Shown piece by piece: positions 8,163 to 20,878 of a DNA stretch of 20,878 nt. The first letter of the stretch is position 1, and each line of letters starts with the position of its first letter. Source of the DNA: a virus. The notes under the pieces were generated by a model. It searched no databases. It was not told the origin of the DNA and saw only the letters and a program-made list of their open reading frames with translations. The stretch spans positions 1-20,878 of IMG/VR virus record IMGVR_UViG_3300041964_000177. The stretch is one strand, 5' to 3'. Both the position numbers and the translations under genes were made by a program.

Positions 8163-8218
8163 GGAAGTGTCCTTCTAAGGGTCTGGGGCGCTTCACAGCG
8201 GCCGTTGGGTGGTGCGCT

Positions 8219-8875: not shown

Positions 8876-8894
8876 CCCATTCCACCTGAGCCTG

Positions 8895-8931: not shown

Positions 8932-9034
8932 CCGCCGCAGCAGGTCAGAAAATTTAATCGGCTTCGCGCGCGATGTTGGGCCACAGCCGGCACGACATCT
9001 CCGGCGATTCCGATGACGAGGACGACGAGCCCCC

Positions 9035-9745
9035 TTAGGAATTAATCGTTTCTCGGAAAGCTGCGAGCCGGGCGTCTGCTCTCGCTATTTCCTCAGGAGT
9101 AGGGCCTTTGTGGTCCTGCAGTTGGTAGTTAGGGGCATTGAGAATTGAGGGCTTCTCAACCTCTTCTTCTTCCATGCCCGCCTGCTTCTTTAGATTGGTG
9201 TTTTGATAAGTATTTATATGCTTCCCGGACGGGCGGGAAACTGGTGTCGCGGACGTATGGGAAACTCTCTCCCGGACGTGCGGGAAATTGAGCGGGTATC
9301 GAGCGGCCAATTCCTCCCAGTTTCCCGGACGGTCGCGGAACTGCCAATTTGCGGGCATGGCGAGGGTGATTATCAATGGTCCGGAAAAGACCTTCCGCGT
9401 GATGATGAAGCCCCTCTTGCGAATGGCAGGAACAGCCTCTTCGACCGCCCTGGTCGTCAGGCCACCTGCGCCCGCATAGGCGGGGTATCCGGCAAACGCG
9501 GTCCCGAAATATGGCTTGTCCGGCTCCGTGTTGATGAACTCGGCGATGACTTGGGCCACCAGCTTTTCATTCGCCGTGGGCGCGATTTCTCGTCGGAAGT
9601 CCCGAGCCCATTGAAAGCGGTCGGCGTCGGGCGCTAGAGCCACCGCCGGTACTTGTTCGATCTTCCCCGGCACCCCGCGTGTGAATTTAACAAGCCCGGC
9701 AGGTTTCCCTTTCGGTCTTGAACCGCCCGGCGGCTTATCGCTCAC
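9035..9745 (-). CDS. Lambda O-like replication initiator (unit 1)
   Basis: Identical to the product of 19471-20181. The second of two tandem GTG codons (9745) overlaps the upstream stop as GTGA and is the preferred start. The origin iterons lie inside the gene. Confidence 0.65.
   Translation of the reverse strand: MSDKPPGGSRPKGKPAGLVKFTRGVPGKIEQVPAVALAPDADRFQWARDFRREIAPTANEKLVAQVIAEFINTEPDKPYFGTAFAGYPAYAGAGGLTTRAVEEAVPAIRKRGFIITRKVFSGPLIITLAMPANWQFRDRPGNWEELAARYPLNFPHVRERVSHTSATPVSRPSGKHINTYQNTNLKKQAGMEEEEVEKPSILNAPNYQLQDHKGPTPEEIARADARLAAFRETINS
9189..9342. other. Candidate replication origin: four iterons plus AT-rich tract (unit 1)
   Basis: Iterons at 9224-9242, 9248-9266, 9271-9289 and 9324-9342; AT-rich tract at 9189-9222. 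Identical to unit 2 (19625-19778), where it is described. Confidence 0.65.
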
Positions 9746-9870
9746 CACGGGAGTGGTACCGTTGCCGGATCCGATCCGGGCGTGTAGTCTCCTAGTGCTT
9801 CCTGAAGATTACCCAGGCCGTCCCGATTAGCCCTCGGGGCGGCTTCTTCGTCTGGCGGCCTCACTCTCAT
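9742..9870 (-). CDS. 42-residue peptide of the early operon (unit 1)
   Basis: Identical to the product of 20178-20306. It is linked by an ATGA overlap to the gene before and a GTGA overlap to the initiator after. Confidence 0.5.
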   Translation of the reverse strand: MRVRPPDEEAAPRANRDGLGNLQEALGDYTPGSDPATVPLPW

Positions 9871-10112
9871 GCACCACCCCCGTCCAGCGCCGCCACGCGC
9901 TCCAGGAAGGCGGGTTCCGCATCCGCCCGCAGGAATGCGAGCAGTTGGTGCCGAGCCGCTGCAGCCTCGAAATATGCGTCGGGGCTGCCCCGTGCGCAGA
10001 TATCATCCCGCATGTAGGCGTCGGCCAGGTGCTCGCCCTGCTTGCGCGCCCATTCGACCATTGCTGGGGTGAAGCCGGCGGTCATGCGGCTGGGTTCTTG
10101 GTTCTTGCTCAT
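9867..10112 (-). CDS. 81-residue early-operon protein (unit 1)
   Basis: Identical to the product of 20303-20548; overlaps the HTH gene upstream as ATGA. Confidence 0.65.
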   Translation of the reverse strand: MSKNQEPSRMTAGFTPAMVEWARKQGEHLADAYMRDDICARGSPDAYFEAAAARHQLLAFLRADAEPAFLERVAALDGGGA

Positions 10113-10315
10113 CCCCCCGCGTGAGTCTCCGCAAGGAAAAAGGCCCGCAATTTTCCGGACTCAGCTACCCATCGGCCGCCGACTTTGCGTGCAGGAAGCT
10201 TCCCGCTCTCGAGCAGGCGAAAGGCGAGACGAGGCTTGATGCCGATAGCTTCAGCAATTCGAGCCGCGCCCCAAAGAAGGGCAAAATCATCATCTTTCTG
10301 AGGGGTGTGTGACAC
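10109..10315 (-). CDS. Excisionase/AlpA-like HTH protein (unit 1)
   Basis: Same 68-residue protein as 20545-20751 except for one residue (GGRWV here, GGRWA in unit 2) caused by the A/G difference at 10168. Confidence 0.75.
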   Translation of the reverse strand: MSHTPQKDDDFALLWGAARIAEAIGIKPRLAFRLLESGKLPARKVGGRWVAESGKLRAFFLAETHAGG

Positions 10316-10342
10316 CGGAACCGCTCCATTCTGATAGCTGGT

Positions 10343-10380
10343 CCGGGCAATAGACCCGGCCTTCCATTACTCGAAATGGA
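10343..10380. promoter_or_regulatory. Two inverted repeats upstream of the early operon (unit 1)
   Basis: CCGGG-N7-CCCGG (10343-10359) and TCCATT-ACTCGA-AATGGA (10363-10380), 28 to 65 bases upstream of the HTH start codon. These are candidate operators. I see no convincing -35/-10 pair here. Confidence 0.35.
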
Positions 10381-10413
10381 TGATTCCGCGCCTATTTTCA
10401 AGTTTAGAGCCTG

Positions 10414-11232
10414 TTATTCTATCGCACTGCCCTCATGAATAAAGCAGCTACTTACAGTAAAGCTTTCCTTTACTTGGCATCGCTCATCGAGGCGCTTTTT
10501 AGGTTTCCACTCGCCCCATGGTGGTCGAAAATCACTCACCCCCCGCTCGCCGCGGCGCTCGGTGCTGCCATGGGTTGTGGTCCTGGCCGGCTCCCGCCCC
10601 CTCTTCTCAAGACCCTTGTTTTTCTGTTTGCCCGTGGGGTTTCTTTCCGTGCCCCCTATCCTCAACCAAGCACGCCAGGACGGGTCTATGACGCGCAGGA
10701 TGTTGGTCAGGTGCTTCCTGCCGGGGCGTGGCCGCATCTCTATGGACAGCAGGCCCATACGACCGGCGAGGCGCACGGCACGTCTTGCCAGCGTCCTGCA
10801 GCATCCGGCACGGGCGGCGAGCTCGTCATAGGAGCGGTCACAGCCGCCATGACTACGCACCTCGTCGGCGACCACCTTCAGCACGGCCAGCTCGCCCTGC
10901 GTGAACTTTGCGGCCAAGGTCGGCGGCAACCCCCCTGCCGCTGCAAGGTGTCGGCGCCGTTCCATGCTGCGGCGTCTGTCCGGGGACTGTTGAACACGCC
11001 GCGGCGGAAACCGGCTGGGGCCGCTCCACAAGGGCTTTTGAGTTCCGGCGGCGGGTAGCACCACCCCACCTCTCAAAGCCGCTCTGCGGGCCTCCAGCGC
11101 GGCGGAAAGCGCCTCCGTATCAGCATCGGGTAGAACCCCTCCCGCGTAAGCTTTCCAAAGCTCTCTTGCGAGCGAGTCGCAACTGGCCAAGCTGGCGCGG
11201 CCAATAGCTTCGGTGATTTGATTGGCAAACAT
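10414..11232 (-). CDS. Winged helix-turn-helix protein, RepC-position replication/control gene
   Basis: Intact 272-residue copy, reading across the unit junction. Residues 1-55 are helical (MFANQITEAIGRASLAS, LARELWKAY). Residues 56-100 are Arg/Pro-rich. Residues about 104-190 look like a winged helix: LPPTLAAKFTQGELAVLKVVADEV, a recognition region YDELAARAGCCRTLARRAVR (about 135-154), and a wing with RPGRKHLTNILRV. Residues after 190 are low-complexity and basic. I recall similar winged-helix proteins on plasmids of Methylobacterium and Bradyrhizobium relatives, with unknown function. Its place after parA and an RHH gene, behind a candidate antisense RNA, is the place of repC in repABC plasmids. 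It may therefore be a second initiator or a copy-control regulator; that role is inferred. A possible SD-masking hairpin (11236-11268) lies just before the start at 11232. The long tail could be shortened in reality if a frameshift remains. Confidence 0.65.
   Translation of the reverse strand: MFANQITEAIGRASLASCDSLARELWKAYAGGVLPDADTEALSAALEARRAALRGGVVLPAAGTQKPLWSGPSRFPPRRVQQSPDRRRSMERRRHLAAAGGLPPTLAAKFTQGELAVLKVVADEVRSHGGCDRSYDELAARAGCCRTLARRAVRLAGRMGLLSIEMRPRPGRKHLTNILRVIDPSWRAWLRIGGTERNPTGKQKNKGLEKRGREPARTTTHGSTERRGERGVSDFRPPWGEWKPKKRLDERCQVKESFTVSSCFIHEGSAIE
10456..10474. repeat. Inverted repeat in the 3' part of the HTH/Rep-like gene
   Basis: AGTAAAG-CTTTC-CTTTACT, a perfect 7-base stem around a HindIII-like centre. 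It lies within the last 20 codons of the gene and is damaged in unit 1. No T tract follows, so it is not an obvious terminator; it could be a protein-binding site. Confidence 0.3.
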
Positions 11233-11235
11233 TTC

Positions 11236-11268
11236 CCCTGCCCTTGTTAGGGCGGACGCAAGGCAGGG
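11236..11268 (-). promoter_or_regulatory. SD-sequestering hairpin in the HTH/Rep leader
   Basis: On the minus-strand message, CCCTGCC (11268-11262) can pair with GGCAGGG (11242-11236), which contains the only SD-like bases of the HTH gene (CAGGGGAAATG). Folding would hide the ribosome site. This is the type of control known for repC leaders, where an antisense RNA decides the fold. In unit 1 the pairing is imperfect. Confidence 0.5.
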
Positions 11269-11273
11269 CCGTT

Positions 11274-11323
11274 CGCTGAAATGCGTTTCAGCGATTGACA
11301 GGCTCCGGAATTTTGGAGATCAT
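11274..11323 (+). promoter_or_regulatory. Strong plus-strand promoter with upstream palindrome
   Basis: Palindrome CGCTGAAA-TGCG-TTTCAGCG (11274-11293), then -35 TTGACA (11295-11300), a 17-base spacer and GATCAT (11318-11323). It points away from the HTH gene and towards the RHH gene, opposite to both. The -35 box is a consensus match and the -10 a fair one. The palindrome next to the -35 box is a likely operator, or a stem in the opposing mRNA leader. Confidence 0.65.
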
Positions 11324-11346
11324 CAAGTGTGCTTCTTTGATGATCT
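11317..11346. promoter_or_regulatory. Perfect inverted repeat with compensatory changes between copies
   Basis: AGATCATCAA and TTGATGATCT pair around a 10-base loop. The unit 1 counterpart (887-920) has GAGATCATCGA and TCGACGATCTC: a base pair has changed on both sides, and one remaining A-C mismatch becomes a G-U pair if the minus strand is transcribed. That favours an RNA structure in the HTH/Rep leader over a DNA site only. Confidence 0.55.
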
Positions 11347-11396
11347 GCTTTTCCAAAAGGGCTTTGCGGCGCCAACCGCGAGGCCCTTTTCCTTTT
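11330..11396 (+). ncRNA. Candidate counter-transcribed (antisense) RNA controlling the Rep-like gene
   Basis: Predicted RNA of about 65 bases from the promoter at 11295-11323 to the terminator at 11355-11390. It lies wholly inside the parA-RHH to HTH intergenic region, on the opposite strand, so it would be complementary to the leader of the HTH/Rep-like mRNA. In repABC plasmids a ctRNA with this position and direction sets repC expression and incompatibility. No similarity to a named RNA is claimed; the call rests on promoter, hairpin, terminator and position. Confidence 0.55.
11355..11390 (+). terminator. Intrinsic terminator of the candidate ctRNA
   Basis: AAAAGGGC (11355-11362) pairs with GCCCTTTT (11383-11390), with an inner GCGG/CCGC stem and a following CCTTTT. 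It has A-rich and T-rich flanks and so could also stop minus-strand transcripts coming from parA-RHH. Confidence 0.7.
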
Positions 11397-11535
11397 AGCG
11401 TTCCGCCGTTTCAGTCACTCCCAAGTCCGAATCGTTGTGGATTGCGGGCTGATTTGCCCGGCAAGTCAAACGGCGCAGCGCCGCGGCGCCGTAATTCTGT
11501 ATTGTCGTAAGGGCGTAATGCCGTCGATACGGCAC

Positions 11536-11772
11536 CTACTCCGGCGGGAACTGCTCGGCCAGAACGGCGCGGAGCACGTCGGACATCGGCTTGCCCTGCT
11601 TCACGCAGTAAATCTTCATCCGCGAATGCAGCTCTCCGTCCACGTCGAGTGTGAACCTGACCATCCGCTTCGCCGGTGCCGCCGGAGAGGGGCTCATGTC
11701 CTTGCCGCTCTCGATCCACGCATCGGCATTCGCCGGGGGTGTTGGTCGCTTGAACGCGACGGTCTTTTTCAT
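11536..11772 (-). CDS. Ribbon-helix-helix partition/repressor protein, ParG-like
   Basis: A 78-residue protein whose start overlaps the parA stop as ATGA. The first 33 residues are Pro/Ala/Ser-rich and probably flexible. Residues 35-44 ([10 protein letters not shown]) form the DNA-binding strand, followed by helices [16 protein letters not shown] and [13 protein letters not shown] mobile N-tail plus a C-terminal RHH fold, next to a small parA, is the layout of ParG-type centromere-binding proteins. These load ParF on the plasmid and repress their own operon. Likely binding sites are the TACGG octads at 12442-12558. A plain CopG-type repressor is the main alternative. Confidence 0.8.
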
Positions 11773-12416
11773 GCTGCCGCTCTCCGCTGATTTTGTAGGA
11801 GGGTTATGGCGAGGCCAAGCGACCGCACCTCACGGGATGCTTCGCTGTTTGGATCGACCTCAAGGACGGTGAGTCCCTGCGCTGCGGACTCCGCAAATAT
11901 GACCCGCTGCGACAATGGCGTGGGAAGCACAGAAAAGGCGGAGCCGGCGAAGGCTTCCGCAACATCGCGCCCAATTGCCGTATTTACGACCCTGCGGTTT
12001 ACCGTAAACACGGCTCGGATGTTGTCTTTGAACTGCTGAGCTTCCTTCACAAGCTGGACAGTCTGATCCGCTGCCCATACGTCGAACGGCGAGGGCGTGA
12101 TCGGGATGATGACTAGGTCGCTGGCCAGGATGGCGCTGCGGCCAAGGTCGTTGACCCGTGGTGCCCCGTCGATCAGCGTCACAGCATAATCGGCAGCTAC
12201 GGACGGGAGGTCTCGGTGCAGCGTCGGCGTTGCCATGCCAATAACCGGAAAGAGCGGTGCAGCTTCCCGTGCCGATGACCACGACATAGCACTTGCTTGA
12301 GGATCGGCATCGACAACGAGGGTGCGGAAGCCCTCTCGGGCGAAGTAGGCGGCCAGATTAAGGGTCACTGTCGTTTTACCGACGCCGCCCTTCTGGTTCA
12401 GCAATCCAATAATCAT
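11769..12416 (-). CDS. parA: ParA-family partition ATPase, small ParF type
   Basis: A 215-residue protein. It has the deviant Walker A motif at residues 9-16 (KGGVGKTT with signature Lys9), the A' motif VVDADPQ at 34-40, and Walker B VTLIDGAP around 79-86. It lacks an N-terminal HTH domain, as in type Ib systems, where a separate RHH protein is the repressor. ParA ATPases of this kind move plasmid copies over the nucleoid so that both daughter cells inherit one, and parA on this element says it is maintained as a replicon. No strong SD precedes ATG at 12416. A weak minus-strand promoter (TTGTTA at 12483-12478, GTATCG at 12460-12455, 17 bases apart) overlaps the octad repeats, which would allow autoregulation. 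Confidence 0.93.
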
Positions 12417-12441
12417 ACCGGAGGCCCCGACTCGCCGTGGC

Positions 12442-12558
12442 TACGAGCTTACGGCGATACGGTGCCGGTGAAGTGGTTAACAAAAACTTTCCGGCTGTGG
12501 CTTTGCGGTCATCGCAGCCGCGTAATTGCGGTTTTACGGTGCCACGACGATACGGCGC
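12442..12558. promoter_or_regulatory. TACGG octad clusters: candidate centromere and operators
   Basis: Cluster 1 (12442-12465) is TACGAGCT, TACGGCGA, TACGGTGC; cluster 2 (12535-12558) is TACGGTGC, CACGACGA, TACGGCGC. Each is three repeats at an exact 8-base period. RHH partition proteins bind arrays of short boxes with 7-8 base spacing. Cluster 1 covers the candidate parA -10 region. Cluster 2 lies 40 bases before the plus-strand accessory gene and overlaps a weak TTGCGG / GATACG pair. Between them is CCGC-GTAATT-GCGG. Confidence 0.55.
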
Positions 12559-12597
12559 TAAGGATCAACATCGCTGATTGAATGAGAGGGTTGCAGA

Positions 12598-13074
12598 TTG
12601 GCTACTACACTGCTGGACAGCATTTTATCTGCCCATCTAAGTCCGAACGAGTGGTTCGATTATTTTGGTACTCTTACAGCTAAAGAATTTGAAAATACTC
12701 TCGATGAAGTAGTAGCATCAAAGAAATTTCATTCTAATTTATATGTAGGTTTCGCCAGAAAGCTCCACGAATATGGGAATTTCCAAGAAGGTCTATCCGA
12801 AGAATATCGTTTGGCACTTATTTTGGAAGCCGAAGTAATTATGAAGGTTGTGATCGCGAACATTAATGAAGAGCATAGACAAGATATTATAACAGAATGG
12901 GCCGCGTCACAGGATTATGCGGAACGGTTCGGCTATAGAAGCGGGTCTCTTTATGGGACCTTAGAGCCCCGTCACGTATTCAAGAATGAAGTGCCCGATT
13001 TAACCAATCATTCAAATTGTATTCAGATGCACCCCTCCCCTGTGCGATCCCTGGTGGGGAGGAGATTGAGATGA
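12598..13074 (+). CDS. AT-rich accessory gene, 158 residues, unknown function
   Basis: I do not recognise the family. The product is soluble, mostly helical and acidic in its first two thirds (LLDSILSAHLSPNEWFDYF, EFENTLDEVVASKKF, EEYRLALILEAEVIMKVV), with no membrane segment. Codon use is plainly AT-rich (GAATTTGAAAATACTCTC, CATTCTAATTTATATG), unlike every neighbour, which points to recent acquisition. The last 20 residues return to high GC and may be a read-on into older sequence. TTG at 12598 follows GAGAGG; no in-frame ATG is available upstream. It is translationally coupled to a membrane peptide gene. In satellites, such a foreign-looking gene beside the replication block is often an anti-phage, superinfection or maintenance gene. 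That is a guess here. Confidence 0.75.
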   Translation: MATTLLDSILSAHLSPNEWFDYFGTLTAKEFENTLDEVVASKKFHSNLYVGFARKLHEYGNFQEGLSEEYRLALILEAEVIMKVVIANINEEHRQDIITEWAASQDYAERFGYRSGSLYGTLEPRHVFKNEVPDLTNHSNCIQMHPSPVRSLVGRRLR

Positions 13075-13241
13075 GTGAAGCCCAGGAATCTCGGCCCTAC
13101 CTGCACCGACTCTCCGACGCAACGTGGCATTTATCTCTGACAATTCTCGTCGCCGCTTTGGCCATCTTGGCGTGCGCGGCTGTCGGGGGTTTTTGGTGGC
13201 TATTCTTCTGGGGGATTGGTCATCTATTCGGTGCGTGGTGA
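13071..13241 (+). CDS. Single-helix membrane peptide, 56 residues
   Basis: Starts at ATG 13071 with a strong SD (GGGGAGGAG) and an ATGA overlap with the gene before. Residues 1-20 are polar (MSEAQESRPYLHRLSDATWH). Residues 21-54 are hydrophobic and aromatic (LSLTILVAALAILAC, then GGFWWLFFWGIGHLF), enough for one helix or a tight hairpin. The Trp/Phe-rich end resembles small phage membrane effectors and toxin-like peptides in composition only. Coupling to the 158-residue gene suggests a two-component cargo, for example sensor plus membrane effector; this is inferred. Confidence 0.7.
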   Translation: MSEAQESRPYLHRLSDATWHLSLTILVAALAILACAAVGGFWWLFFWGIGHLFGAW

Positions 13242-13251
13242 CGTTGCATGG

Positions 13252-13392
13252 CTAGGCTAGAAGGTCCGCCATCTTCCATATCGCAAGTGCCCAGATAGCT
13301 ATCGTAAAGAACCCCACGCCAGAGAAGACCAGGATAGTTTCTGCGGCGCTTTCATAATTTCTGCGATTTTCCACAATCCGAGGAACTCGCAT
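13252..13392 (-). CDS. Small membrane peptide, 46 residues
   Basis: ATG at 13392 follows AAAGGAGAGGTT, one of the best ribosome sites in the window. The peptide has a charged N-terminus (MRVPRIVENRR), a single membrane helix (residues about 20-39), and KMADLLA at the end. It converges on the 56-residue membrane gene with a 10-base gap, so the two messages could overlap at their 3' ends. Function unknown. Unit 1 has the same frame with one residue changed, which supports coding. Confidence 0.6.
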   Translation of the reverse strand: MRVPRIVENRRNYESAAETILVFSGVGFFTIAIWALAIWKMADLLA

Positions 13393-13504
13393 AACCTCTC
13401 CTTTGCCGACTCATCGCCTTGTAAGCCGGTAAAGTTAACTTCGGCTCCTTGTCGCATCCAAGCGGATTTTTGTCGTGGCCTGTAACTGGCTCGCCGTGTC
13501 AGGG

Positions 13505-13550
13505 GGGTCTGAGCCTAACTCCCTGAGCGCGGGGGCTCCTATTGAGGTCA
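13505..13550. repeat. Interspersed repeat A
   Basis: GGGTCTGAGCCTAACTCCC...GAGCGCGGG...CTCCTATTGAGGTCAC, with a small GC hairpin in its centre. Partner B is at 14337-14385. Read on the minus strand, both carry CAATAGGAG followed by the hairpin. The shared outer blocks CCTAACTCC and CTCCTATTGAGG are conserved while the hairpin differs. Confidence 0.75.
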
Positions 13551-13587
13551 CCGCAAGGCTGGAACCTCGCGCACCAACAGTCATTTG

Positions 13588-13706
13588 CCTGTGTCCCTGC
13601 CGCGCCCCCGAAGCGATATTCGGCAGGACAGGCCGCGCTCGATAAACCTTGAACGAGCAATGTGAGCCACTGGCCGCCCGGTGTAACGCTTGGCGGCCTT
13701 TTCTTT
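13588..13706 (+). ncRNA. Structured RNA / leader with intrinsic terminator
   Basis: Three hairpins in a row. The first is a 12-pair stem (CCTGT plus CCTGCCG against CGGCAGG plus ACAGG, with a 3-base bulge), whose arms enclose CCGAA-GCGATA-TTCGG. The second is GCTCG-N12-CGAGC. The third is a clear intrinsic terminator, GGCCGCC (13672-13678) with GGCGGCC (13692-13698), followed by TTTTCTTT. No gene ends just before it on this strand. It is either an independent small RNA or a leader with an attenuator for the 71-residue gene, whose ATG comes 22 bases after the T tract. I see no convincing promoter upstream and match no known riboswitch. Confidence 0.5.
13672..13706 (+). terminator. Intrinsic terminator
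   Basis: Seven-pair all-GC stem GGCCGCC / GGCGGCC, 13-base loop, then TTTTCTTT. It is the best terminator in the window and is identical in unit 1 at 3239-3273. Confidence 0.8.
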
Positions 13707-13727
13707 GCCCATGGTAGGCTGCGACGA

Positions 13728-13943
13728 ATGACTGAACCCCGCCGCTTCCCGCCGCCCTGGTCCGTCCAGCGCACTGTAGGCGACCACTTCAAGGTTCAGG
13801 ACGCGAACGGGCTAGATTTGGCTTGGGTTTACGTGAAGGCGGCCGGGGCTGGCGTGGCCGGGCTCACGGAAGACGAGGCACGAAGGATCGCGGCAAATAT
13901 CGCTAGGCTGCCGGAGCTGCTGAAGCGCCAGGATGCAGGATGA
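13728..13943 (+). CDS. Small Bradyrhizobium-type conserved protein, 71 residues
   Basis: MTEPRRFPPPWSVQRT opens the protein, then a strand-rich middle (DHFKVQDANGLDLAWVYVK), and a helical end LTEDEARRIAANIARLPELLKR. I recall this start-and-end pattern from many copies of an uncharacterised small protein in Bradyrhizobium and related genomes, hence its use as a host clue; the function is unknown. It is soluble, with no catalytic motif. It follows the intrinsic terminator closely and is coupled by ATGA to the next gene. The cassette it forms with that gene is flanked by repeats A and B. Confidence 0.8.
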   Translation: MTEPRRFPPPWSVQRTVGDHFKVQDANGLDLAWVYVKAAGAGVAGLTEDEARRIAANIARLPELLKRQDAG

Positions 13944-14161
13944 CGCTGTTCCACGTCACACGCTATGACAAGGACGGCAGGGTGACGACCGCCGTTGTTC
14001 CCGTCGAGGCTGAATCGAAATCAGCAGCGGCCGAAAAGGTCTGCGGCTTCGCTGTCGCCAGCGACGTGAAACCCGGTCGCGCTACGGCCAGTGTCCTCGC
14101 ATTGGGTGAGCCCGCGGGTGATCGGGAATACTTCCGCCGCGCCAGTGAGGGAAAGGGTTAG
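13940..14161 (+). CDS. Small hypothetical protein, 73 residues
   Basis: MTLFHVTRYDKDGRVTTAVVPVEAESKSAAAEKVCGF looks like a small beta-alpha unit: two strands, then an Ala/Glu/Lys helix. The C-terminal half is GDREYFRRASEGKG. No family is recognised. Such small proteins that present an XXVTRYDXXG strand followed by an EAESKSAAAEKV helix are common in Rhizobiales, but I cannot name a function. The start overlaps the previous stop as ATGA, so the pair is co-translated. Confidence 0.7.
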   Translation: MTLFHVTRYDKDGRVTTAVVPVEAESKSAAAEKVCGFAVASDVKPGRATASVLALGEPAGDREYFRRASEGKG

Positions 14162-14472
14162 CGCCGCGTGCCACGATGCAAGCGCGGATTCGCATAACGT
14201 GCAGTCTGGAACGCGATTTTAAGTTCTCAGATAGCATTCCTGGCCGAGTTCCGCATGTGGAACAGACAAGGCTAGAACAGGCCCAGCAAACCCCGACGAA
14301 AGCGCCCCATGAGGCATGCCGCGAATACTTTAACTTGGGTCTGGGGCCTAACTCCTCCCCAAGCGCGGGACTCCTATTGAGGCGACGCTGAGCAAGCCGA
14401 GCCGCTAGGTTGACTCGACCGCTGCCACTCGCGTGAATGCAGGGGCTGGGGACATCCTAAGGAGCTGCCCAG
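14162..14472. other. Gene-poor stretch holding repeat B
   Basis: A 311-base gap between the 73- and 107-residue genes. It contains repeat B (14337-14385) and an open plus frame at 14176-14391 that is broken by one base in unit 1 and shows no protein-like features. Nothing else is supported. Confidence 0.5.
14337..14385. repeat. Interspersed repeat B
   Basis: GGGTCTGGGGCCTAACTCC, TCCCCAAGCGCGGGA, CTCCTATTGAGGCGAC. Same orientation as repeat A, about 830 bases downstream. The segment between the two carries the structured RNA and the 71/73-residue pair. Confidence 0.75.
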
Positions 14473-14796
14473 GTGAAGCTATGGATTTTCATCGGGGTGC
14501 TGATCGTCGCCGGAGTATTCTACGCAAGAAGCGACCTCAACAAACCACCACCTGTTGTTCGAACTGACATGCCCTTTCCGGAAGAGCAGCGCCGCGCGGC
14601 AACAGAAGCCATCCAAGCGGCGGGGTTTAATTGTCCAGAGGCTAAGCTCGCCTATGCGAGAGGGCAGGATCCCATCGGCAACGTTACTCGCATTCATTGC
14701 GGGCCCGAAGGAGGCGATAGTGTTTATGAAAAAGCGGTGTTTCGCCTGACCTTTCGGCCAAATGGAACCTACGTTGTGGGGCCTTGGGAAGACTAG
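14473..14796 (+). CDS. Membrane-anchored extracytoplasmic protein, 107 residues
   Basis: GTG start at 14473, 9 bases after AAGGAG. Residues 3-17 (LWIFIGVLIVAGVFY) form a signal anchor with no clear signal-peptidase site. The rest (RSDLNKPPPVVRTDMPF onward) would lie outside the cytoplasm. Two cysteines (54 and 76) in the GFNCPEAK and IHCGPEGG segments could form a disulfide, and the C-terminal FRLTFRPNGTYVVGPW looks like a beta hairpin. No family is recognised. It is the last plus-strand gene and converges on the virion operon. A host-surface change such as superinfection exclusion would suit a phage satellite, but is only a suggestion. Confidence 0.75.
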   Translation: MKLWIFIGVLIVAGVFYARSDLNKPPPVVRTDMPFPEEQRRAATEAIQAAGFNCPEAKLAYARGQDPIGNVTRIHCGPEGGDSVYEKAVFRLTFRPNGTYVVGPWED

Positions 14797-14852
14797 ACGG
14801 GGCTGCTGGTCATCAGGTCACCTCAGGAATTCAAAACGCTCAGCGAGAAGTT

Positions 14853-14898
14853 TGAGTGACCCGCCGGTGGAAACCCCTTCGAAGCCTGACTCAAAAAT
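14853..14898. terminator. Weak inverted repeat between convergent genes
   Basis: TTTGAGT pairs with ACTCAAA about 30 bases later, between the end of the plus-strand 107-residue gene and the end of the minus-strand virion operon. The right arm is followed by AA and not by a T tract, so its role as a terminator is doubtful. Confidence 0.25.
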
Positions 14899-14905
14899 CG
14901 CATTG

Positions 14906-15142
14906 CTAGGCGTGTCCAGCCGCACCGGCGCTCAGAACGTCGATTTCGGCGACGCGCTTGATGCAACGGGTGAGGAACCGCTCCGCATTCCGAAGCTGCT
15001 CATCTTCCGTCATTGCCGGATACTCGGCGCAGACCATGGCCGCATAGTTCTTCGTCATGGCCATGAGGACAGATGGCCGGTTCTCCGGGTGCAGCGGGCA
15101 GACCAGCATCGCCACGGCATCGAAGATTTCGTCGGGTGTCAT
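14906..15142 (-). CDS. Last gene of the virion operon, 78 residues
   Basis: MTPDEIFDAVAMLVCPLHPENRPSVLMAM is followed by helices NYAAMVCAEYPAMTEDEQLRNAERFLTRC and VAEIDVLSAG. It is all-helical, soluble and slightly acidic, with three cysteines and no motif I can name. A small helical protein after the portal might be a head-tail connector, a scaffold-size factor, or a factor that redirects a helper phage. None of these can be chosen from sequence. ATG at 15142 lies one base after the stop of the 59-residue frame. A longer opening upstream to 15250 (VRKGREHRRTL) overlaps that frame and is less likely. Confidence 0.6.
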   Translation of the reverse strand: MTPDEIFDAVAMLVCPLHPENRPSVLMAMTKNYAAMVCAEYPAMTEDEQLRNAERFLTRCIKRVAEIDVLSAGAAGHA

Positions 15143-15143
15143 T

Positions 15144-15323
15144 TCACAGCTTCGGTGAACGGGGCGCCAGCCGCGCAAAGCCAGCGCCCCGTTCTGTTTG
15201 TGAGCCCTTCGCGCATGGAGCGTGCGCCGGTGCTCGCGACCTTTCCGCACCTTGACCCCTATCGCTGGGTGCCGGGGAGGCGTGGTTCCCGTTGTCGGAC
15301 GGGGCCGCTAACCGCCCTCTCAT
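15144..15323 (-). CDS. 59-residue basic, disordered protein (tentative)
   Basis: Opens at ATG 15323, overlapping the portal stop as ATGA. It ends one base before the next start, so it fills the gap exactly. The product is rich in Ala, Arg, Pro and Ser (MRGRLAAPSDNGNHASPAPS, RLAPRSPKL) and predicted to be unstructured. I recognise no family, and the composition alone could come from non-coding GC-rich DNA. The tight spacing is the main support. Confidence 0.4.
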   Translation of the reverse strand: MRGRLAAPSDNGNHASPAPSDRGQGAERSRAPAHAPCAKGSQTERGAGFARLAPRSPKL

Positions 15324-16567
15324 GAGCTGGCACCCATGTTCGTGGCAGCCGCGTTCGGCCGCATGTATTGGTCACCGCCGGGGATCCGGTTGAGGCCCTC
15401 CCAGACCCGCGCATCGTTCGGTGACATGAAGCCCGCCTCGATGCCGGTTCGGTAAGCCGCGAAGCGTGCGGCCAGGTCGCCGCGGAGCAACCCGGTCAGG
15501 TCGTGTTCCAGCACATATTGGCGCCGGCCTTCATCGGTCAGGAGGGCGAGCTGTAGCTGTGCTTCGACGCGGCGGGCCCATGGTGCGAAGCAGTTCTGCA
15601 CAAGCGCTCGGCTCTCTTCGGTCAGGCTCCCATAGCTGGCATTTTTGCCCAGCCCGACGACAGAGAGCGGCACGCCGTAGATGCGGGCGATGTCCTCTAG
15701 TCCTAGGACCCGCGCTTCGTGGAACTGCGCTTCACGCCCCGGCGTCCCCAGCGCATTGGCCTTCAGGCCGGCCTCGAGGAGCAGCGGGGCGACACCGGAG
15801 CGCATCCGGCCGACACGCTCGGACAGCTGCGCCTTCAAACGCTGGAACGCCGTGTCGGCAAGTTCACCTTGGAAGGCCGCGTCGGTTTCAAAGCTCAAGT
15901 CTGGAACAAAGCCGCGGTCGACCTGACCTTGCGCCAATTCGGATTGCGCCATGGCCAGGCCTACGGCACCTCCAGCCCATGCCAGCGGGCCAATGCCGAT
16001 CTGCCCGTCTTTGGATGCGTAACGTAGATGCGCGATTTCGTCGGCCAGGTAGACCCGTGAGGCCCCGGAGCCATCACTGACCTGATAGCGCAGGCGACCG
16101 CTCTGGAGCCTCTCAGGAGCCACGGAGCGGGCCGGGAGGTAGTGCAGGGCGGCGACCTGCCCACGGGCGTCATGGGCGATGCAGGCATAGGCATTGCCCG
16201 ACGTGCATAGGTCTCGAAGTAGCAGGTCACGAAGCTCGAAGCCCGACATGCCGGGCGCGGCCACTTCATTGAGGATCCGCTGAATCGGATGTCTCTCAAC
16301 CAGTTCACGCCCGCCGTCAGGAAGGCGTTTGTAAATCGACAACGGCAAGGCGGCGAGGCCCTCGCTAATCAAGCTGACGCACCGTGCCGCGACGGCCAGG
16401 GTGTTGACCGCTGCCTCGGGCGTCGTGAAGCCGCCGCCGGTCCGATAGGTGACCAGATTTCTGGCCCAGTTGTCGCCGTCGGAATAGGCCGCGGTCGGCC
16501 AATTCATGACGCCCAAGGGCGTAACCTCGCGGCGCTCAATTCCGAATAGACGCGCCAAGCGGCCCAC
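15320..16567 (-). CDS. HK97-family portal protein
   Basis: A 415-residue protein, normal length for HK97 gp3-type portals, which form the twelve-fold ring at one capsid vertex through which DNA enters and leaves. Typical segments are TTPEAAVNTLAVAARCVSLIS with ALPLSIYKR (residues about 48-80), HPIQRILNEVAAPGMSGFELR, GNAYACIAHDARGQVAALHYLP, and the C-terminal pair YGSLTEESRALVQNCFAPW and GFMSPNDARVWEGLNRIPGGD. It starts two bases after the protease stop. Order in the operon is capsid, protease, portal, the reverse of the usual portal, protease, capsid. A functional portal implies that DNA is packaged, yet no large terminase gene is present. Confidence 0.95.
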   Translation of the reverse strand: MGRLARLFGIERREVTPLGVMNWPTAAYSDGDNWARNLVTYRTGGGFTTPEAAVNTLAVAARCVSLISEGLAALPLSIYKRLPDGGRELVERHPIQRILNEVAAPGMSGFELRDLLLRDLCTSGNAYACIAHDARGQVAALHYLPARSVAPERLQSGRLRYQVSDGSGASRVYLADEIAHLRYASKDGQIGIGPLAWAGGAVGLAMAQSELAQGQVDRGFVPDLSFETDAAFQGELADTAFQRLKAQLSERVGRMRSGVAPLLLEAGLKANALGTPGREAQFHEARVLGLEDIARIYGVPLSVVGLGKNASYGSLTEESRALVQNCFAPWARRVEAQLQLALLTDEGRRQYVLEHDLTGLLRGDLAARFAAYRTGIEAGFMSPNDARVWEGLNRIPGGDQYMRPNAAATNMGASS

Positions 16568-16569
16568 GT

Positions 16570-17109
16570 TCAGGCTCTCAGCGTGTCGAGAAACGCCAAC
16601 TCCAGCGCAAAACGCCCGGCGCGATGGCCTTCAAGGTGACGCCGCGCCACCGTAGCGTCGACATAAGCCGGCTGGGGCGTGATGGCGATGTCGTGGAGGT
16701 CGAGGTCTATCAGCTCGCGTAAGTTCTCGCCGTCGACCTTGCTCCAGCGCTCTTCCCTAACCCGAAAGGCGAAGCTTGCGCCGCTGACATCGCCCCTGCC
16801 GACCATTTCCAAAACGTCGCGACCGATTGCGGTTTTCGCTACGTCGAGCTGAAAATTTAAGCCCCTGCGGTCCTCTCTCAGTCGCAATGTGCCCGATTTC
16901 GTGCGGCCTAGGACGCCCTCAACGTTGTGGTTCCAGAGTGCCAAAACGTCGGGCTTGTCCAGTAAACAGCGGCGGAACGCCCCCGGCCGCACGGTTTCGT
17001 AAAAGCCGCCAAGGTCGGCGGACCGAACGTCAAAGACGGCCGCGTAGCCGTCCAGCATGTTACCGAACGTGTGAAGCTCCGGACTTGCACGGCGCTCGAT
17101 TTCGCTCAT
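16570..17109 (-). CDS. HK97-family prohead maturation protease
   Basis: A 179-residue protein. These proteases act inside the prohead, cutting the capsid delta domain and then themselves. The fold is shown by GYAAVFDVRSADLGGFYETVRPGAF (residues 21-45), the likely catalytic His61 in ALWNHN, the likely catalytic Ser112 in DVSGASFAF, and the conserved strand DLHDIAITPQPAYVDATV near 138-154. Length is normal for the family. ATG at 17109 overlaps the stop of the preceding gene as ATGA. It sits between the 108-residue gene and the portal gene, in the same transcript as its capsid substrate. Confidence 0.93.
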   Translation of the reverse strand: MSEIERRASPELHTFGNMLDGYAAVFDVRSADLGGFYETVRPGAFRRCLLDKPDVLALWNHNVEGVLGRTKSGTLRLREDRRGLNFQLDVAKTAIGRDVLEMVGRGDVSGASFAFRVREERWSKVDGENLRELIDLDLHDIAITPQPAYVDATVARRHLEGHRAGRFALELAFLDTLRA

Positions 17110-17432
17110 TGCGCACCGTCCCGGCGTGCGAGCTCGTCCTTGATGACCTGGTCCGCGGCCGGAGCCGACTTGGGCCGTTCGCCTGACAAGGCTTCTGCGA
17201 GCCGGATCCGGCGCAAGTAGTGCTGGCCGCTCCAATCCTCGGGTATTTCGACCAGCTTAACCGGCTCGGGCTCTGCACTGACCACCTCGGCCGTTTCCGG
17301 CTTCTGGTCCGTCCAGCCTGCCGCGCGATAAGCCTTGGCGAGACGCTCGGGCAGGTCGTGAACCCCCGGCCCAAACGAGTGGTTGCCGTCGGTGACTTGG
17401 CGGAGGAGCGTGACCTTCACCATTTGGCTCAC
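17106..17432 (-). CDS. Small capsid-operon protein, 108 residues
   Basis: Residues 1-40 (MSQMVKVTLLRQV, GNHSFGPGVHDLPERLAKAYRAAGW) match the general pattern of short phage proteins next to capsid genes: a strand, then XFXPGXXXDLPEXXAXXXXXAGW. The Pro/Glu/Val-rich middle is probably flexible, and the end is helical. The function of that type is mostly unknown; head decoration or completion is possible. The gene has ATGA overlaps on both sides (with capsid and protease), so it is firmly part of the virion transcript. Met4 is an alternative start. Confidence 0.75.
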   Translation of the reverse strand: MSQMVKVTLLRQVTDGNHSFGPGVHDLPERLAKAYRAAGWTDQKPETAEVVSAEPEPVKLVEIPEDWSGQHYLRRIRLAEALSGERPKSAPAADQVIKDELARRDGAQ

Positions 17433-18598
17433 GCCGTAATCGCGCCGAAGGTGCCGTAGATCAGCCCTGTCGGCATCCGGATTGCCAAGGCGATGCGTTC
17501 TTCACAACGCACCATGAGCAAGTTTCTGGCGAAGAAATCGGAGTGCTCAGAACTTATTTGGACCTCGCTCTGGAGCCTGTCGTAAAGAGTCACAGCACTC
17601 TGGAAATCGCCAACCAAGAATGACCCTGCAGCAATAGCCGGTGTTGCTACAACCGGGACACCCCACAGCCTCGGCTGGTCGACGTTTCCGAACGGGCCTT
17701 GGCTGATATATCTGCCATCAGCGTCCTTCATCTCAACCATGCGAGAAAAGTCTGCGAGGTTTAGGACGATAGCGGAGGCCGCCAGGCCAATGTCGGCAAG
17801 CTGCGCAATGGCGTGGTGGATGACATCAACGCGCTTGTCGCCGGCCTGATTTCTGGCCACGTCATATCCGCTCGCGACGCCAATCATGCCCTGAAGATTC
17901 GGGGCCGTGCCATTGCCGCTTAAGAGCTGGATCTCTTCGACCAGGCCAAGGCCGAGACGAAGCTGGCCGTCAATGAACGCACGGAGCTGGTCGAGGTCGT
18001 CAAGGGATTGGCGCGAGACCGGCAGGAGGTGGGCTATCACGCGGGCTGGAGCCGTATAGGTCGACAGCGTCATGTCAGACTCGGGCTTCAACGCGCCCTC
18101 AGCGACCGTCGCGGCATTGTTCACGAAAGCCGACTGCCTGATGTATTCGACTGTGCTTGAGGTCGTGCGGGCCTGCGGGAGAATGTCGCGAACGGTGAGA
18201 CGTCGTTGCGGCAGAGCAATAATGCCGGGGCGCCTGTCCGCGGCAACCACGCTTCCCAAGCTGGTCAAGGCGCGCAACTCGAAGCGTGTAGAACCGCGTG
18301 CACCACCCTCGACGAAGCTCCGGATTTCCGGTGCCGCGATGGCTTGCTCGCCCCAAGTCTTCGGCTGCTCGTTGCCGTTCGCCAGTATCGGCACGGCGGT
18401 GGCACGGCGCTCCAAATCGGCAACCGTCTCGGCCTGACCAATCGTGTTTTCGAGGCTCAGGGCCTCGGCCTTGAACGAGTCGAAATGGCCCTGCTCGGTC
18501 TCGTTCAGGCTGCGGTTTTCCGTGCCGGCGCGGTCAAGCAAAGCCCTCATTTTGGCGACGAGTACGCCGCGTTTTTCTCTGAGGTCGGCGAGTTTCAT
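17429..18598 (-). CDS. HK97-fold major capsid protein
   Basis: A 389-residue protein. Residues 1 to about 70 are a charged coiled-coil delta domain (LADLREKRGVLVAKMRALLDRAG, LNETEQGHFDSFKAEALSLENTI) that serves as built-in scaffold and would be removed by the protease encoded downstream; cleavage probably falls near residues 95-110. The fold is marked by VRDILPQARTTSSTVEYIRQ, AATVAEGALKPESDMTL, the spine helix region around LDDLDQLRAFIDGQLRLGLGLVEE with LLSGNGTAPNLQG, and the C-terminal LWGVPVVATPAI, FARNLLMVRCEERIALAI. It is preceded by AGAAGGA and a 56-base gap from the HTH gene. It is the first structural gene of the operon. Confidence 0.96.
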   Translation of the reverse strand: MKLADLREKRGVLVAKMRALLDRAGTENRSLNETEQGHFDSFKAEALSLENTIGQAETVADLERRATAVPILANGNEQPKTWGEQAIAAPEIRSFVEGGARGSTRFELRALTSLGSVVAADRRPGIIALPQRRLTVRDILPQARTTSSTVEYIRQSAFVNNAATVAEGALKPESDMTLSTYTAPARVIAHLLPVSRQSLDDLDQLRAFIDGQLRLGLGLVEEIQLLSGNGTAPNLQGMIGVASGYDVARNQAGDKRVDVIHHAIAQLADIGLAASAIVLNLADFSRMVEMKDADGRYISQGPFGNVDQPRLWGVPVVATPAIAAGSFLVGDFQSAVTLYDRLQSEVQISSEHSDFFARNLLMVRCEERIALAIRMPTGLIYGTFGAITA

Positions 18599-18654
18599 GG
18601 AAGTGTCCTTCTAAGGGTCTGGGGCGCTTCACAGCGGCCGTTGGGTGGTGCGCT

Positions 18655-19311
18655 TTATGCGAGCGCTGACTGTCGGGTTCGAGGCTTCAGTCGGCTGATA
18701 ATTCCCTGCGCTCTGATGGAAAGGGCTTCGCCCATGGCGAATGCCTGAAACGCGAGGTTCAAGAGGCTGTCGTCGTCGGACTCCGACGCATCCTGTTCTG
18801 CTTGGTCGGGCAAGCTCGCCTGCCCCGCTTCTGGCAGGTCTTTCAGCGACCGAAGAACCGCAGCAGCATCCACGGTGACCAGCAGCGGCGGCCGGTCCAG
18901 ACGACCGGGGCGCAGCATGGCCTCGAATTCAGCGCCGCTTTGTCCGGGAAGCCGGTTAGCGACAACCCCGCTCCAGTCGCCCGCACTGTCGCGCCAAGCG
19001 CAAATCAACGTCTCGCCTTCCGCGAATAGGCCAGAGGGCGCCCGTTGCCCGTGAACGCCGTTATAGGCGAAGCGCCCCGCGAGCGGCGCTGCGACCGCGA
19101 GCGGGACCGCGTCCGCCAGCATCGCGATAGCGGCGATGTGAACGGCACGGGAGCGCGTGATTAGCATGGCGACACCGGCCTTGGGAGCGCGCTGGTCGCC
19201 TCGTTCGCCTGCCGGGATAAGCCCGGTGTTCAGCCAACCACGAATGGTGCCGAGCCGCTTGTCGAAGCGGTCAGGGTCGATTGCTCGTGCGACGTCTGAA
19301 AGCCGATACAT
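18655..19311 (-). CDS. MerR-like HTH protein heading the virion operon; possible small-terminase analogue
   Basis: A 218-residue protein. Residues 1-35 (MYRLSDVARAIDP, TIRGWLNTGLIPAGE) form a MerR/gpNu1-like winged helix start. Residues 45-80 are hydrophobic Ala-rich helices. Residues 95-150 are strand-rich (GLFAEGETLICAWRDSAGDW, LLVTVDAAAVLRSL). An acidic linker follows (residues 170-181, AEQDASESDDDS), then a helical end LLNLAFQAFAMGEALSI. A DNA-binding head, acidic linker and C-terminal interaction segment, placed where a small terminase gene normally sits, would suit a packaging-recognition protein that docks onto a helper's large terminase. A transcription regulator of the operon is equally open. 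SD AGGTGG lies before ATG at 19311. Confidence 0.7.
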   Translation of the reverse strand: MYRLSDVARAIDPDRFDKRLGTIRGWLNTGLIPAGERGDQRAPKAGVAMLITRSRAVHIAAIAMLADAVPLAVAAPLAGRFAYNGVHGQRAPSGLFAEGETLICAWRDSAGDWSGVVANRLPGQSGAEFEAMLRPGRLDRPPLLVTVDAAAVLRSLKDLPEAGQASLPDQAEQDASESDDDSLLNLAFQAFAMGEALSIRAQGIISRLKPRTRQSALA

Positions 19312-19330
19312 CCCATTCCACCTGAGCCTG

Positions 19331-19367
19331 CAATGTTCATTGTAGGATATCGTGAACGGAATAGCAA
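19331..19367 (-). promoter_or_regulatory. Virion-operon promoter with overlapping operator
   Basis: On the minus strand: -35 TTGCTA (19367-19362), exactly 17 bases, -10 TACAAT (19344-19339), and a start point expected near 19332, about 20 bases before the first codon. The perfect inverted repeat CAATG-TT-CATTG (19331-19342) covers the -10 box and start point, so a bound protein would block transcription. Candidates are the operon's own MerR-like product or the excisionase-like HTH protein. Confidence 0.6.
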
Positions 19368-19470
19368 CCGCCGCAGCAGGTCAGAAAATTTAATCGGCTT
19401 CGCGCGCGATGTTGGGCCACAGCCGGCACGACATCTCCGGCGATTCCGATGACGAGGACGACGAGCCCCC

Positions 19471-20181
19471 TTAGGAATTAATCGTTTCTCGGAAAGCTGC
19501 GAGCCGGGCGTCTGCTCTCGCTATTTCCTCAGGAGTAGGGCCTTTGTGGTCCTGCAGTTGGTAGTTAGGGGCATTGAGAATTGAGGGCTTCTCAACCTCT
19601 TCTTCTTCCATGCCCGCCTGCTTCTTTAGATTGGTGTTTTGATAAGTATTTATATGCTTCCCGGACGGGCGGGAAACTGGTGTCGCGGACGTATGGGAAA
19701 CTCTCTCCCGGACGTGCGGGAAATTGAGCGGGTATCGAGCGGCCAATTCCTCCCAGTTTCCCGGACGGTCGCGGAACTGCCAATTTGCGGGCATGGCGAG
19801 GGTGATTATCAATGGTCCGGAAAAGACCTTCCGCGTGATGATGAAGCCCCTCTTGCGAATGGCAGGAACAGCCTCTTCGACCGCCCTGGTCGTCAGGCCA
19901 CCTGCGCCCGCATAGGCGGGGTATCCGGCAAACGCGGTCCCGAAATATGGCTTGTCCGGCTCCGTGTTGATGAACTCGGCGATGACTTGGGCCACCAGCT
20001 TTTCATTCGCCGTGGGCGCGATTTCTCGTCGGAAGTCCCGAGCCCATTGAAAGCGGTCGGCGTCGGGCGCTAGAGCCACCGCCGGTACTTGTTCGATCTT
20101 CCCCGGCACCCCGCGTGTGAATTTAACAAGCCCGGCAGGTTTCCCTTTCGGTCTTGAACCGCCCGGCGGCTTATCGCTCAC
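19471..20181 (-). CDS. Lambda O-like replication initiator
   Basis: A 236-residue protein, counted from the second of two tandem GTG codons because that one overlaps the preceding stop as GTGA. Residues 44-130 form a winged-helix region (FQWARDFRREIAPTANEKLVAQVIAEFI, LTTRAVEEAVPAIRKRGFIITRK, LIITLAMP). Residues 135-190 are a linker, encoded by the iterons and AT-rich tract. The acidic C-terminal end (MEEEEVEKPS, TPEEIARADARLAAFRE) could contact a helicase loader. In lambda, O protein binds iterons within its own gene through an N-terminal winged helix and recruits the helicase through its C-terminus. The same order is seen here. No helicase or loader gene is present, so host or helper proteins would be needed. 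The alternative is a plain DNA-binding regulator. Confidence 0.7.
   Translation of the reverse strand: MSDKPPGGSRPKGKPAGLVKFTRGVPGKIEQVPAVALAPDADRFQWARDFRREIAPTANEKLVAQVIAEFINTEPDKPYFGTAFAGYPAYAGAGGLTTRAVEEAVPAIRKRGFIITRKVFSGPLIITLAMPANWQFRDRPGNWEELAARYPLNFPHVRERVSHTSATPVSRPSGKHINTYQNTNLKKQAGMEEEEVEKPSILNAPNYQLQDHKGPTPEEIARADARLAAFRETINS
19625..19778. other. Candidate replication origin: four iterons plus AT-rich tract inside the initiator gene
   Basis: Four 19-base elements lie at 19660-19678 (CCCGGACGGGCGGGAAACT), 19684-19702, 19707-19725 and 19760-19778, the first three at 23-24 base spacing. The three best are interrupted palindromes of the form TCCCG-N6-CGGGA with GGAC fixed. Directly beside the first is an AT-rich tract (19625-19658, with GATAAGTATTTATATG) suited to strand opening. 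Number of iterons, their length, interrupted-palindrome form, placement in the middle of the initiator gene and the AT-rich block on the 3' side all match the plan of the lambda origin, though the bases do not. Confidence 0.7.
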
Positions 20182-20306
20182 CACGGGAGTGGTACCGTTG
20201 CCGGATCCGATCCGGGCGTGTAGTCTCCTAGTGCTTCCTGAAGATTACCCAGGCCGTCCCGATTAGCCCTCGGGGCGGCTTCTTCGTCTGGCGGCCTCAC
20301 TCTCAT
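20178..20306 (-). CDS. 42-residue peptide of the early operon
   Basis: MRVRPPDEEAAPRANRDGLG, then NLQEALGDYTPGSDPATVPLPW. The start overlaps the previous stop as ATGA and the stop overlaps the initiator start as GTGA, so it fills the 118-base gap exactly and links four genes into one coupled series. It is acidic and probably unfolded; the function is unknown. It may serve mainly to carry ribosomes to the initiator start, which has no SD of its own. Confidence 0.5.
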   Translation of the reverse strand: MRVRPPDEEAAPRANRDGLGNLQEALGDYTPGSDPATVPLPW

Positions 20307-20548
20307 GCACCACCCCCGTCCAGCGCCGCCACGCGCTCCAGGAAGGCGGGTTCCGCATCCGCCCGCAGGAATGCGAGCAGTTGGTGCCGAGCCGCTGCAG
20401 CCTCGAAATATGCGTCGGGGCTGCCCCGTGCGCAGATATCATCCCGCATGTAGGCGTCGGCCAGGTGCTCGCCCTGCTTGCGCGCCCATTCGACCATTGC
20501 TGGGGTGAAGCCGGCGGTCATGCGGCTGGGTTCTTGGTTCTTGCTCAT
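20303..20548 (-). CDS. 81-residue early-operon protein
   Basis: Helical protein: FTPAMVEWARKQGEHLADAYMRDDI, then SPDAYFEAAAARHQLLAFLRADAEPAFLERVAAL. I do not recognise a family. The repeated helix with small and aromatic residues suggests a compact helical bundle or dimer. ATG at 20548 overlaps the HTH stop as ATGA; Met10 is an alternative start. Lying between an excisionase-like gene and the initiator, it may act in control of replication or induction. Confidence 0.65.
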   Translation of the reverse strand: MSKNQEPSRMTAGFTPAMVEWARKQGEHLADAYMRDDICARGSPDAYFEAAAARHQLLAFLRADAEPAFLERVAALDGGGA

Positions 20549-20751
20549 CCCCCCGCGTGAGTCTCCGCAAGGAAAAAGGCCCGCAATTTTCCGGACTCAG
20601 CTGCCCATCGGCCGCCGACTTTGCGTGCAGGAAGCTTCCCGCTCTCGAGCAGGCGAAAGGCGAGACGAGGCTTGATGCCGATAGCTTCAGCAATTCGAGC
20701 CGCGCCCCAAAGAAGGGCAAAATCATCATCTTTCTGAGGGGTGTGTGACAC
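20545..20751 (-). CDS. Excisionase/AlpA-like HTH protein
   Basis: A 68-residue protein. LLWGAARIAEAIGIKPRLAFRLLESGKLPARKVGGRW (residues 13-49) is the classic winged-helix pattern of excisionase and AlpA-type proteins: a scaffold helix, a recognition helix with RLAFRLLESG, and a KVGGRW wing. In satellites such proteins often switch on early functions or excision. No integrase is present, so here a regulator of the replication operon it heads is more likely. It is the first gene of the coupled early operon, and the inverted repeats at 20779-20816 are possible targets. Confidence 0.8.
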   Translation of the reverse strand: MSHTPQKDDDFALLWGAARIAEAIGIKPRLAFRLLESGKLPARKVGGRWAAESGKLRAFFLAETHAGG

Positions 20752-20778
20752 CGGAACCGCTCCATTCTGATAGCTGGT

Positions 20779-20816
20779 CCGGGCAATAGACCCGGCCTTC
20801 CATTACTCGAAATGGA
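20779..20816. promoter_or_regulatory. Two inverted repeats upstream of the early operon
   Basis: CCGGG-CAATAGA-CCCGG (20779-20795) and TCCATT-ACTCGA-AATGGA (20799-20816), between the early operon and the end of the HTH/Rep-like gene. These are candidate operators. The promoter itself is not clear to me. Confidence 0.35.
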
Positions 20817-20878
20817 TGATTCCGCGCCTATTTTCAAGTTTAGAGCCTGTTATTCTATCGCACTGCCCTCATGAATAA

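Follow-up and report, generated by a model that had tools for sequence, protein, structure and literature searches.

A candidate lambda-type origin within the O-like initiator gene of a satellite-like element carrying HK97-type head genes

The locus described here raises the question of whether a putative replication initiator gene also houses, within its own coding sequence, the origin at which its product would act, as in phage lambda. A preliminary description of the window (i.e., the whole stretch of 20,878 bases that was analysed) had proposed such an origin in a winged-helix gene at positions 19625-20181, an interval that covers only part of the gene: the full open reading frame extends from 19471 to 20184 on the minus strand, has a GTG start and encodes 237 amino acids. 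We report that the data as a whole are best explained by an O-like initiator gene, assigned as such by profile match, in which the linker-coding DNA is itself the origin, a reading to which we give a probability of roughly 0.82.

Organisation of the element

The window consists of two head-to-tail copies of a unit of ~10,436 bases (positions 1-10442 and 10443-20878) with 97% identity overall, and presumably two rounds of a circular element were read, which is the simplest explanation. Positions 19400-20400 are letter-identical to 8964-9964 in the other tandem unit (copy-to-copy comparison), so the region of the in-gene repeats is present twice; being identical, the two copies provide no independent or evolutionary information on the repeats. 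Differences between the copies mostly fall within the initial ~1 kb of copy 1, the ParA gene and part of the portal gene. Specifically, many indels and substitutions within positions 1-1000 break the gene for a 272-aa protein in copy 1, and the portal gene is also partly different; the copy 1 differences resemble noise from the assembly or a mix of variants.

The genes on the minus strand encode, in order, a 68-aa helix-turn-helix (HTH) protein, an 81-aa protein, the focal 237-aa protein, a 218-aa protein, an HK97-type capsid protein, a 108-aa protein, a protease and a portal protein, and beyond the portal gene the unit carries ParA, a ParG-like protein and the 272-aa winged-helix protein; that is, a plasmid module (ParA, ParG and a second winged helix) is joined to a capsid-protease-portal module. 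The HTH protein (20545-20751) is possibly excisionase/AlpA-like, with weak matches to a PHROG excisionase (0.0038) and Pfam HTH_17 (0.0023, below the cut-off), and the 81-aa open reading frame between the HTH and initiator genes (20303-20548) matched no family in PHROGs or Pfam. The 218-aa protein (18655-19311) is described by its position directly upstream of the capsid gene and has no family match; satellite relatives (see below) likewise carry an unassigned gene directly upstream of capsid, and the best-matching region in a homologue search with the 218-aa protein was unrelated. The major capsid protein (17429-18598; Pfam Phage_capsid, 7.8e-46), the prohead protease (16570-17235; Peptidase_S78, Pfam 7.4e-42) and the portal protein (15320-16567; Pfam Phage_portal, 3.9e-76) are all encoded on the minus strand. 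In the direction of transcription these head genes (15320-18598) follow the order capsid, protease, portal, which is the reverse of the usual HK97-type order portal-protease-capsid, and the same reversed order is present in most of the satellite relatives. No match to a terminase (TerL) or an integrase was found within the window, and without a terminase of its own the unit would need the enzyme of a helper for packaging. Downstream of the portal gene there is a small minus-strand ORF (14906-15250) without convincing family match, and plus-strand genes at 12598-13241 have a low GC content and several stretches of at least 70% AT, possibly representing recent cargo.

The ParA partition ATPase (11769-12416, minus strand; PHROG 164, 2.6e-46) shares 68% identity with proteins of Methylobacterium plasmids, an indication of a host among the Hyphomicrobiales. 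Its ParG-like partner (11536-11772, minus strand) was assigned through tblastn to the gene beside ParA in related contigs, and the best plasmid ParA match spans a ParG annotation. The 272-aa protein (10414-11232, minus strand), a candidate initiator for plasmid maintenance on the basis of a winged-helix profile match and its plasmid homologues, has such homologues on about 70 plasmids, mostly from Hyphomicrobiales. One of these, Methylocystis pSS37A-Re-6, carries a ParA-type ATPase, an RHH protein and the 272-aa homologue in that order and no other annotated initiator. Since this arrangement is common to plasmids of this kind, a second replicon for maintenance is likely, and with a second winged-helix candidate beside ParA/ParG the iteron origin need not be the sole replicon. 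The surroundings of the 272-aa gene showed no iteron array. Just upstream of parA (12449-12558) there are repeats with the cores TACGGTGCC / TACGGCGC, possibly a ParG operator or a centromere. The small alphaproteobacterial plasmid of the preliminary description is, more correctly, a satellite-like element with HK97 head genes that is present twice in the contig.

A portal search revealed a distinct group in Hyphomicrobiales genomes, mostly at 42-44% identity and followed by a drop to 32%, and a profile-guided scan of IMG/VR gave about 60 contigs with the same genes, many of them 9.5-12.5 kb. These satellites, a family comprising our loci L224-L231 and L268-L329 from Hyphomicrobiales genomes and IMG/VR contigs, carry TerL, capsid, protease, portal and integrase genes. 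The order in the Hyphomicrobiales loci is TerL - (variable genes) - capsid - protease - portal - tyrosine integrase; in one island, most of the genes of which were scanned against PHROGs, no tail genes were detected. The replication modules vary, with primase/helicase genes in some satellites and an O-like gene, matching "replication initiation O-like" PHROGs, in others. One 10.8-kb satellite contig (L323, IMGVR_UViG_3300045282_000255) that looks circularly permuted, and apparently is circular, has TerL and head genes, an O-like gene whose coding sequence includes four repeats (spacing 33/24/21) and a homologue of the 272-aa plasmid protein, i.e., the two-initiator design that it has in common with the focal unit.

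Repeats, AT-rich tract and winged helix of the focal gene

Four 22-nt repeats are present in the focal gene (19658-19679, 19682-19703, 19705-19726 and 19758-19779) with the consensus GTTTCCCG-N6-CGGGAAAC, palindromic across 8-bp arms. Numbered in the direction of the gene (minus strand), iteron 1 (19758-19779) is the 5'-most, set 53 nt apart and with one degenerate arm; iteron 2 (19705-19726) is an exact TCCCG-N6-CGGGA; iteron 3 (19682-19703) has degenerate arms; and iteron 4 (19658-19679) is a perfect 6-6-6 palindrome, TTCCCG-N6-CGGGAA. Four palindromes of the TCCCG-N6-CGGGA type had been described, and this form is exact in the copies at 19658 and 19705 and degenerate in those at 19682 and 19758. 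The spacing is 53/23/24 nt in gene direction (24/23/53 on the plus strand), and the repeats begin near codons 135, 153, 160 and 168 in frames 0, 2, 1 and 1, such that the array occupies codons 135-176, just after the winged helix. The copies being distributed over three reading frames, it is the DNA that is repeated, and a peptide repeat as the source of the array is ruled out.

A weight matrix built from the four copies detected no further copy in the unit, only the tandem duplicate at 9222-9343, and an exact two-iteron pattern was absent from the viral contigs searched. Allowing three mismatches, an 18-nt pattern was found 17 times in the whole window (15.4 expected), which is not significant alone; the clustered register of the repeats, by comparison, was reached by 0 of 1000 synonymous-codon shuffles of the focal gene. 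The significance rests on clustering and register and not on the loose pattern. Adjoining iteron 4 is an AT-rich tract (19619-19661; at least 70% AT over 30 bp), the predicted and likely melting site, whose best 33-bp window comes second among the 10,403 of the unit; over 40 nt, the DNA on the 3' side of the last iteron is 70% AT. The presence of four repeats and an adjoining AT-rich tract in the linker-coding part of the gene, as first described, is thereby confirmed. With respect to DnaA boxes, the window has one match, far from the focal gene and expected by chance.

The 237-aa protein had no match in Pfam, PHROGs, NCBIfam or among PDB sequences, and tblastn detected no relatives in plasmids, phages, viral contigs or GTDB contigs. 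A family-level search of 298 Hyphomicrobiales genomes likewise gave no match at E ≤ 0.001. Weak matches in 397 Hyphomicrobiales genomes were noise-like, and the three loci inspected contained unrelated genes. An O-like profile was built from 24 Hyphomicrobiales initiators, most of them identified via PHROG 391 and three taken from satellites, and aligned using hhalign with residues 42-116 of the focal protein (score 35.5, E 2e-5), where the best of 200 shuffles scored 16.3 (0/200). A satellite-only O profile gave a score of 32 (best shuffle 15.8). The other proteins of the unit scored at most 16.3 against the O-like profile, except the 272-aa winged helix at 39.8; consequently, the match identifies a winged helix of a broad kind, and it is the repeats that single out the focal gene. 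Since the direct PHROG scan was negative and the 272-aa protein also matches, the relation of the focal protein to O-like initiators (PHROG 391 and relatives) is a distant one, seen by profile.

The predicted winged-helix DNA-binding domain spans residues ~40-131 (19792-20067, minus strand), as suggested by the hhalign match and an AF2 model. For residues 38-140, AF2 predicted the order helix-helix-strand-helix-helix-strand-strand, which is that of a winged helix, in a modest model (pLDDT 64, pTM 0.57). The structure prediction proposed in the preliminary description thus points to a winged helix by profile alignment, with which AF2 agrees at modest confidence. An AF2 model of the whole protein from one sequence was unusable alone (pLDDT 42). 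Foldseek and VIA-align gave no significant single structural match to the AF2 model; among the weak top rows are winged-helix proteins, including plasmid initiators (5kbj, 4pt7, pPS10 RepA and RepE), which is consistent with a winged helix but is no proof of it.

Arrays in O-like relatives, proposed mechanism and alternatives

At least three repeats spaced by 20-25 nt were present in 10 of 24 O-like genes, i.e., in fewer than half, compared with 15 of 286 control ORFs (Fisher p = 2e-6, indicative only, because the array criteria were set after the first results had been seen). The O-like genes were sampled via PHROGs; a few frames that were wrong or truncated are not counted, and some short fragments remain included. 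The arrays are mostly situated just after the winged helix, each gene having its own repeat sequence. Their repeats follow one another at 21-25 nt, often preceded by a further repeat 35-54 nt upstream (44/24/24, 37/23/23, 39/23/23 and 43/23/23 are typical), and in most genes the DNA after the array is AT-richer. The 53/23/24 spacing and the 70% AT of the focal gene fit this O-like pattern. In the satellite initiator genes the array likewise directly follows the winged helix: L224/L289 has eight CCCCGTCC-N4-GGACGGGG copies, L286 four ACGTCGCA-N4-TGCGACGT copies and L229 three GTGACA-N6-TGTCAC copies, and in L294, L300, L321 and L323 there are four or five repeats per gene, not all of them clearly palindromic. 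Hence, relatives within this initiator class have retained an array in the corresponding position, each with repeats of its own sequence. Together, the profile match, the recurrence in relatives and the unique iterons support the suggestion that the focal gene represents an O-like system with its own iteron specificity.

By analogy with lambda, we infer that the N-terminal winged helix, probably as dimers, binds the four interrupted-palindrome iterons, that the bound iterons form a nucleoprotein complex resembling the lambda O-some, and that the adjoining AT-rich tract (19619-19661) melts, whereupon the host DnaB helicase would be loaded at the melted tract. No helicase-loader gene was recognisable in the unit, so helicase recruitment would be direct, via the ~50-residue tail, or go through a host loader. 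Since the origin is carried along by the gene, a joint drift of protein and iterons is possible, by which each relative would come to have its own iteron sequence. Most likely, the in-gene origin, in the block of regulatory, replication and head genes, serves satellite amplification and the ParA/ParG/272-aa module serves maintenance.

Alternatively, the repeats might be operator sites to which a winged-helix regulator binds inside its own gene, with the 272-aa protein driving replication. The 272-aa protein is indeed common on Hyphomicrobiales plasmids, pSS37A-Re-6 has no other annotated initiator, and the focal protein has no direct family match. However, the array ends in an AT-rich tract, its spacing and position are common to O-like initiator genes, no iteron array surrounds the 272-aa gene, and an O-like gene with repeats inside it is present in chromosomal satellites that have these head genes; we consider the operator explanation improbable. 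An in-gene origin of RepC type, where the AT-rich tract alone would melt and the repeats be incidental, finds a parallel in a repABC plasmid from the same bacterial order with oriV inside repC, AT-rich and without iterons (PMC3155836), but the repeats of the focal gene are clear, occupy three frames and are unmatched by synonymous shuffles, and searching Pfam with the focal protein up to E = 1 gave no family, RP-C included; this explanation is very improbable. That a packaging or recombination site (cos/pac or resolution) lies by chance in the focal gene is equally hard to credit, given that the unit yielded neither a terminase nor an integrase gene and that the repeat geometry follows that of initiator genes, even if the portal, protease and capsid genes imply that the DNA may be packaged by some terminase.

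With the O-like initiator gene and its in-gene origin as the preferred explanation, the element as a whole can tentatively, at somewhat less than even odds, be seen as a satellite/plasmid hybrid having a ParA/ParG/272-aa replicon for maintenance and an O-like replicon for amplification, with co-drifting iterons, and belonging to a little-described Hyphomicrobiales lineage that includes L323. In-gene origins force initiator and binding site to evolve together, and as the alphaproteobacterial O-like genes combine the same geometry with different iteron words, the winged-helix recognition code might be deduced by comparison. If the hybrid interpretation is true, these elements would offer many natural protein-iteron pairs for reading the specificity code of O-type initiators. 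Moreover, the data favour the view that origins within genes are a general trait of phage and satellite replication beyond the lambdoid phages; they also point to satellites of Hyphomicrobiales that encode a capsid and form a lineage, part of which apparently exists as small plasmids.

Comparison with known replication systems

Lambda O is a winged-helix initiator. In lambda, four iterons and an AT-rich region are located in the middle of the O gene (PMC7466680); processed in the same way as the focal gene, lambda O gave a spacing of 20/24/23 over codons 116-144, followed by about 78% AT. The lambda origin and the focal gene both have four in-gene interrupted-palindrome iterons of the form TCCC...GGGA with about 23-nt spacing, and in both the AT-rich tract is on the 3' side of the array, i.e., the annotated iterons of lambda show the geometry of the focal array, in line with the likeness noted at the outset. 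They differ in that the lambda iterons have the form ATCCCTCAAAACGAGGGA, spacer and arms being unlike those of the focal repeats, in that one focal iteron is set apart by 53 nt, and in that no P-type loader gene was recognised: none was found adjacent to the focal gene, where the next genes encode the 218-aa protein and the capsid. Lambda O did not match the alphaproteobacterial O-like profile. The focal gene has the anatomical features of a lambda-type in-gene origin, its product being the probable initiator, and by the lack of both a match and a P gene the focal protein is placed outside the lambda O sequence family. The PHROG 391-type O-like proteins of Hyphomicrobiales prophages and satellites have the same winged-helix profile and repeat geometry after the helix, although the focal protein has diverged too far to give a direct HMMER match and its iterons are unique.

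The repABC plasmids resemble the focal unit in having an alphaproteobacterial initiator gene that holds the origin and an AT-rich region; in the plasmid studied, oriV is part of repC and has an AT-rich region but lacks iterons (PMC3155836). RepC acts in cis, and repC is without iterons, unlike the focal gene. The order repA-repB-repC is absent from the unit, where ParA is located elsewhere with a ParG-like partner and the 272-aa protein. Judged from its sequence, the focal protein is not a RepC, since it lacks an RP-C domain and the studied repABC origin lacks iterons.

With respect to the element, cf-PICIs (capsid-forming satellites) are similarly small; like the focal unit, they encode a capsid of HK97 type, a protease and a portal of their own, together with an AlpA-like HTH, and have a gene for replication. 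They are reported mainly from Enterobacteriaceae and several Gram-positive groups, and the hosts listed do not include Alphaproteobacteria (PMC10803314). The focal unit differs from them in being plasmid-like and without terminase or integrase, both of which its chromosomal relatives have; the unit has no known helper. Phage P1, finally, has a lytic replicon (RepL/oriL) and also a plasmid-type replicon with ParA. P1 is a complete phage of 94 kb, unlike the ~10.44-kb focal unit, but like that predicted for the latter its lytic origin would be situated in an initiator gene, on an element with a further, plasmid-type replicon. This origin has been postulated to form part of repL, where a stretch rich in AT is essential (PMC9948254). 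In layout, P1 represents the closest functional analogy to the focal element.
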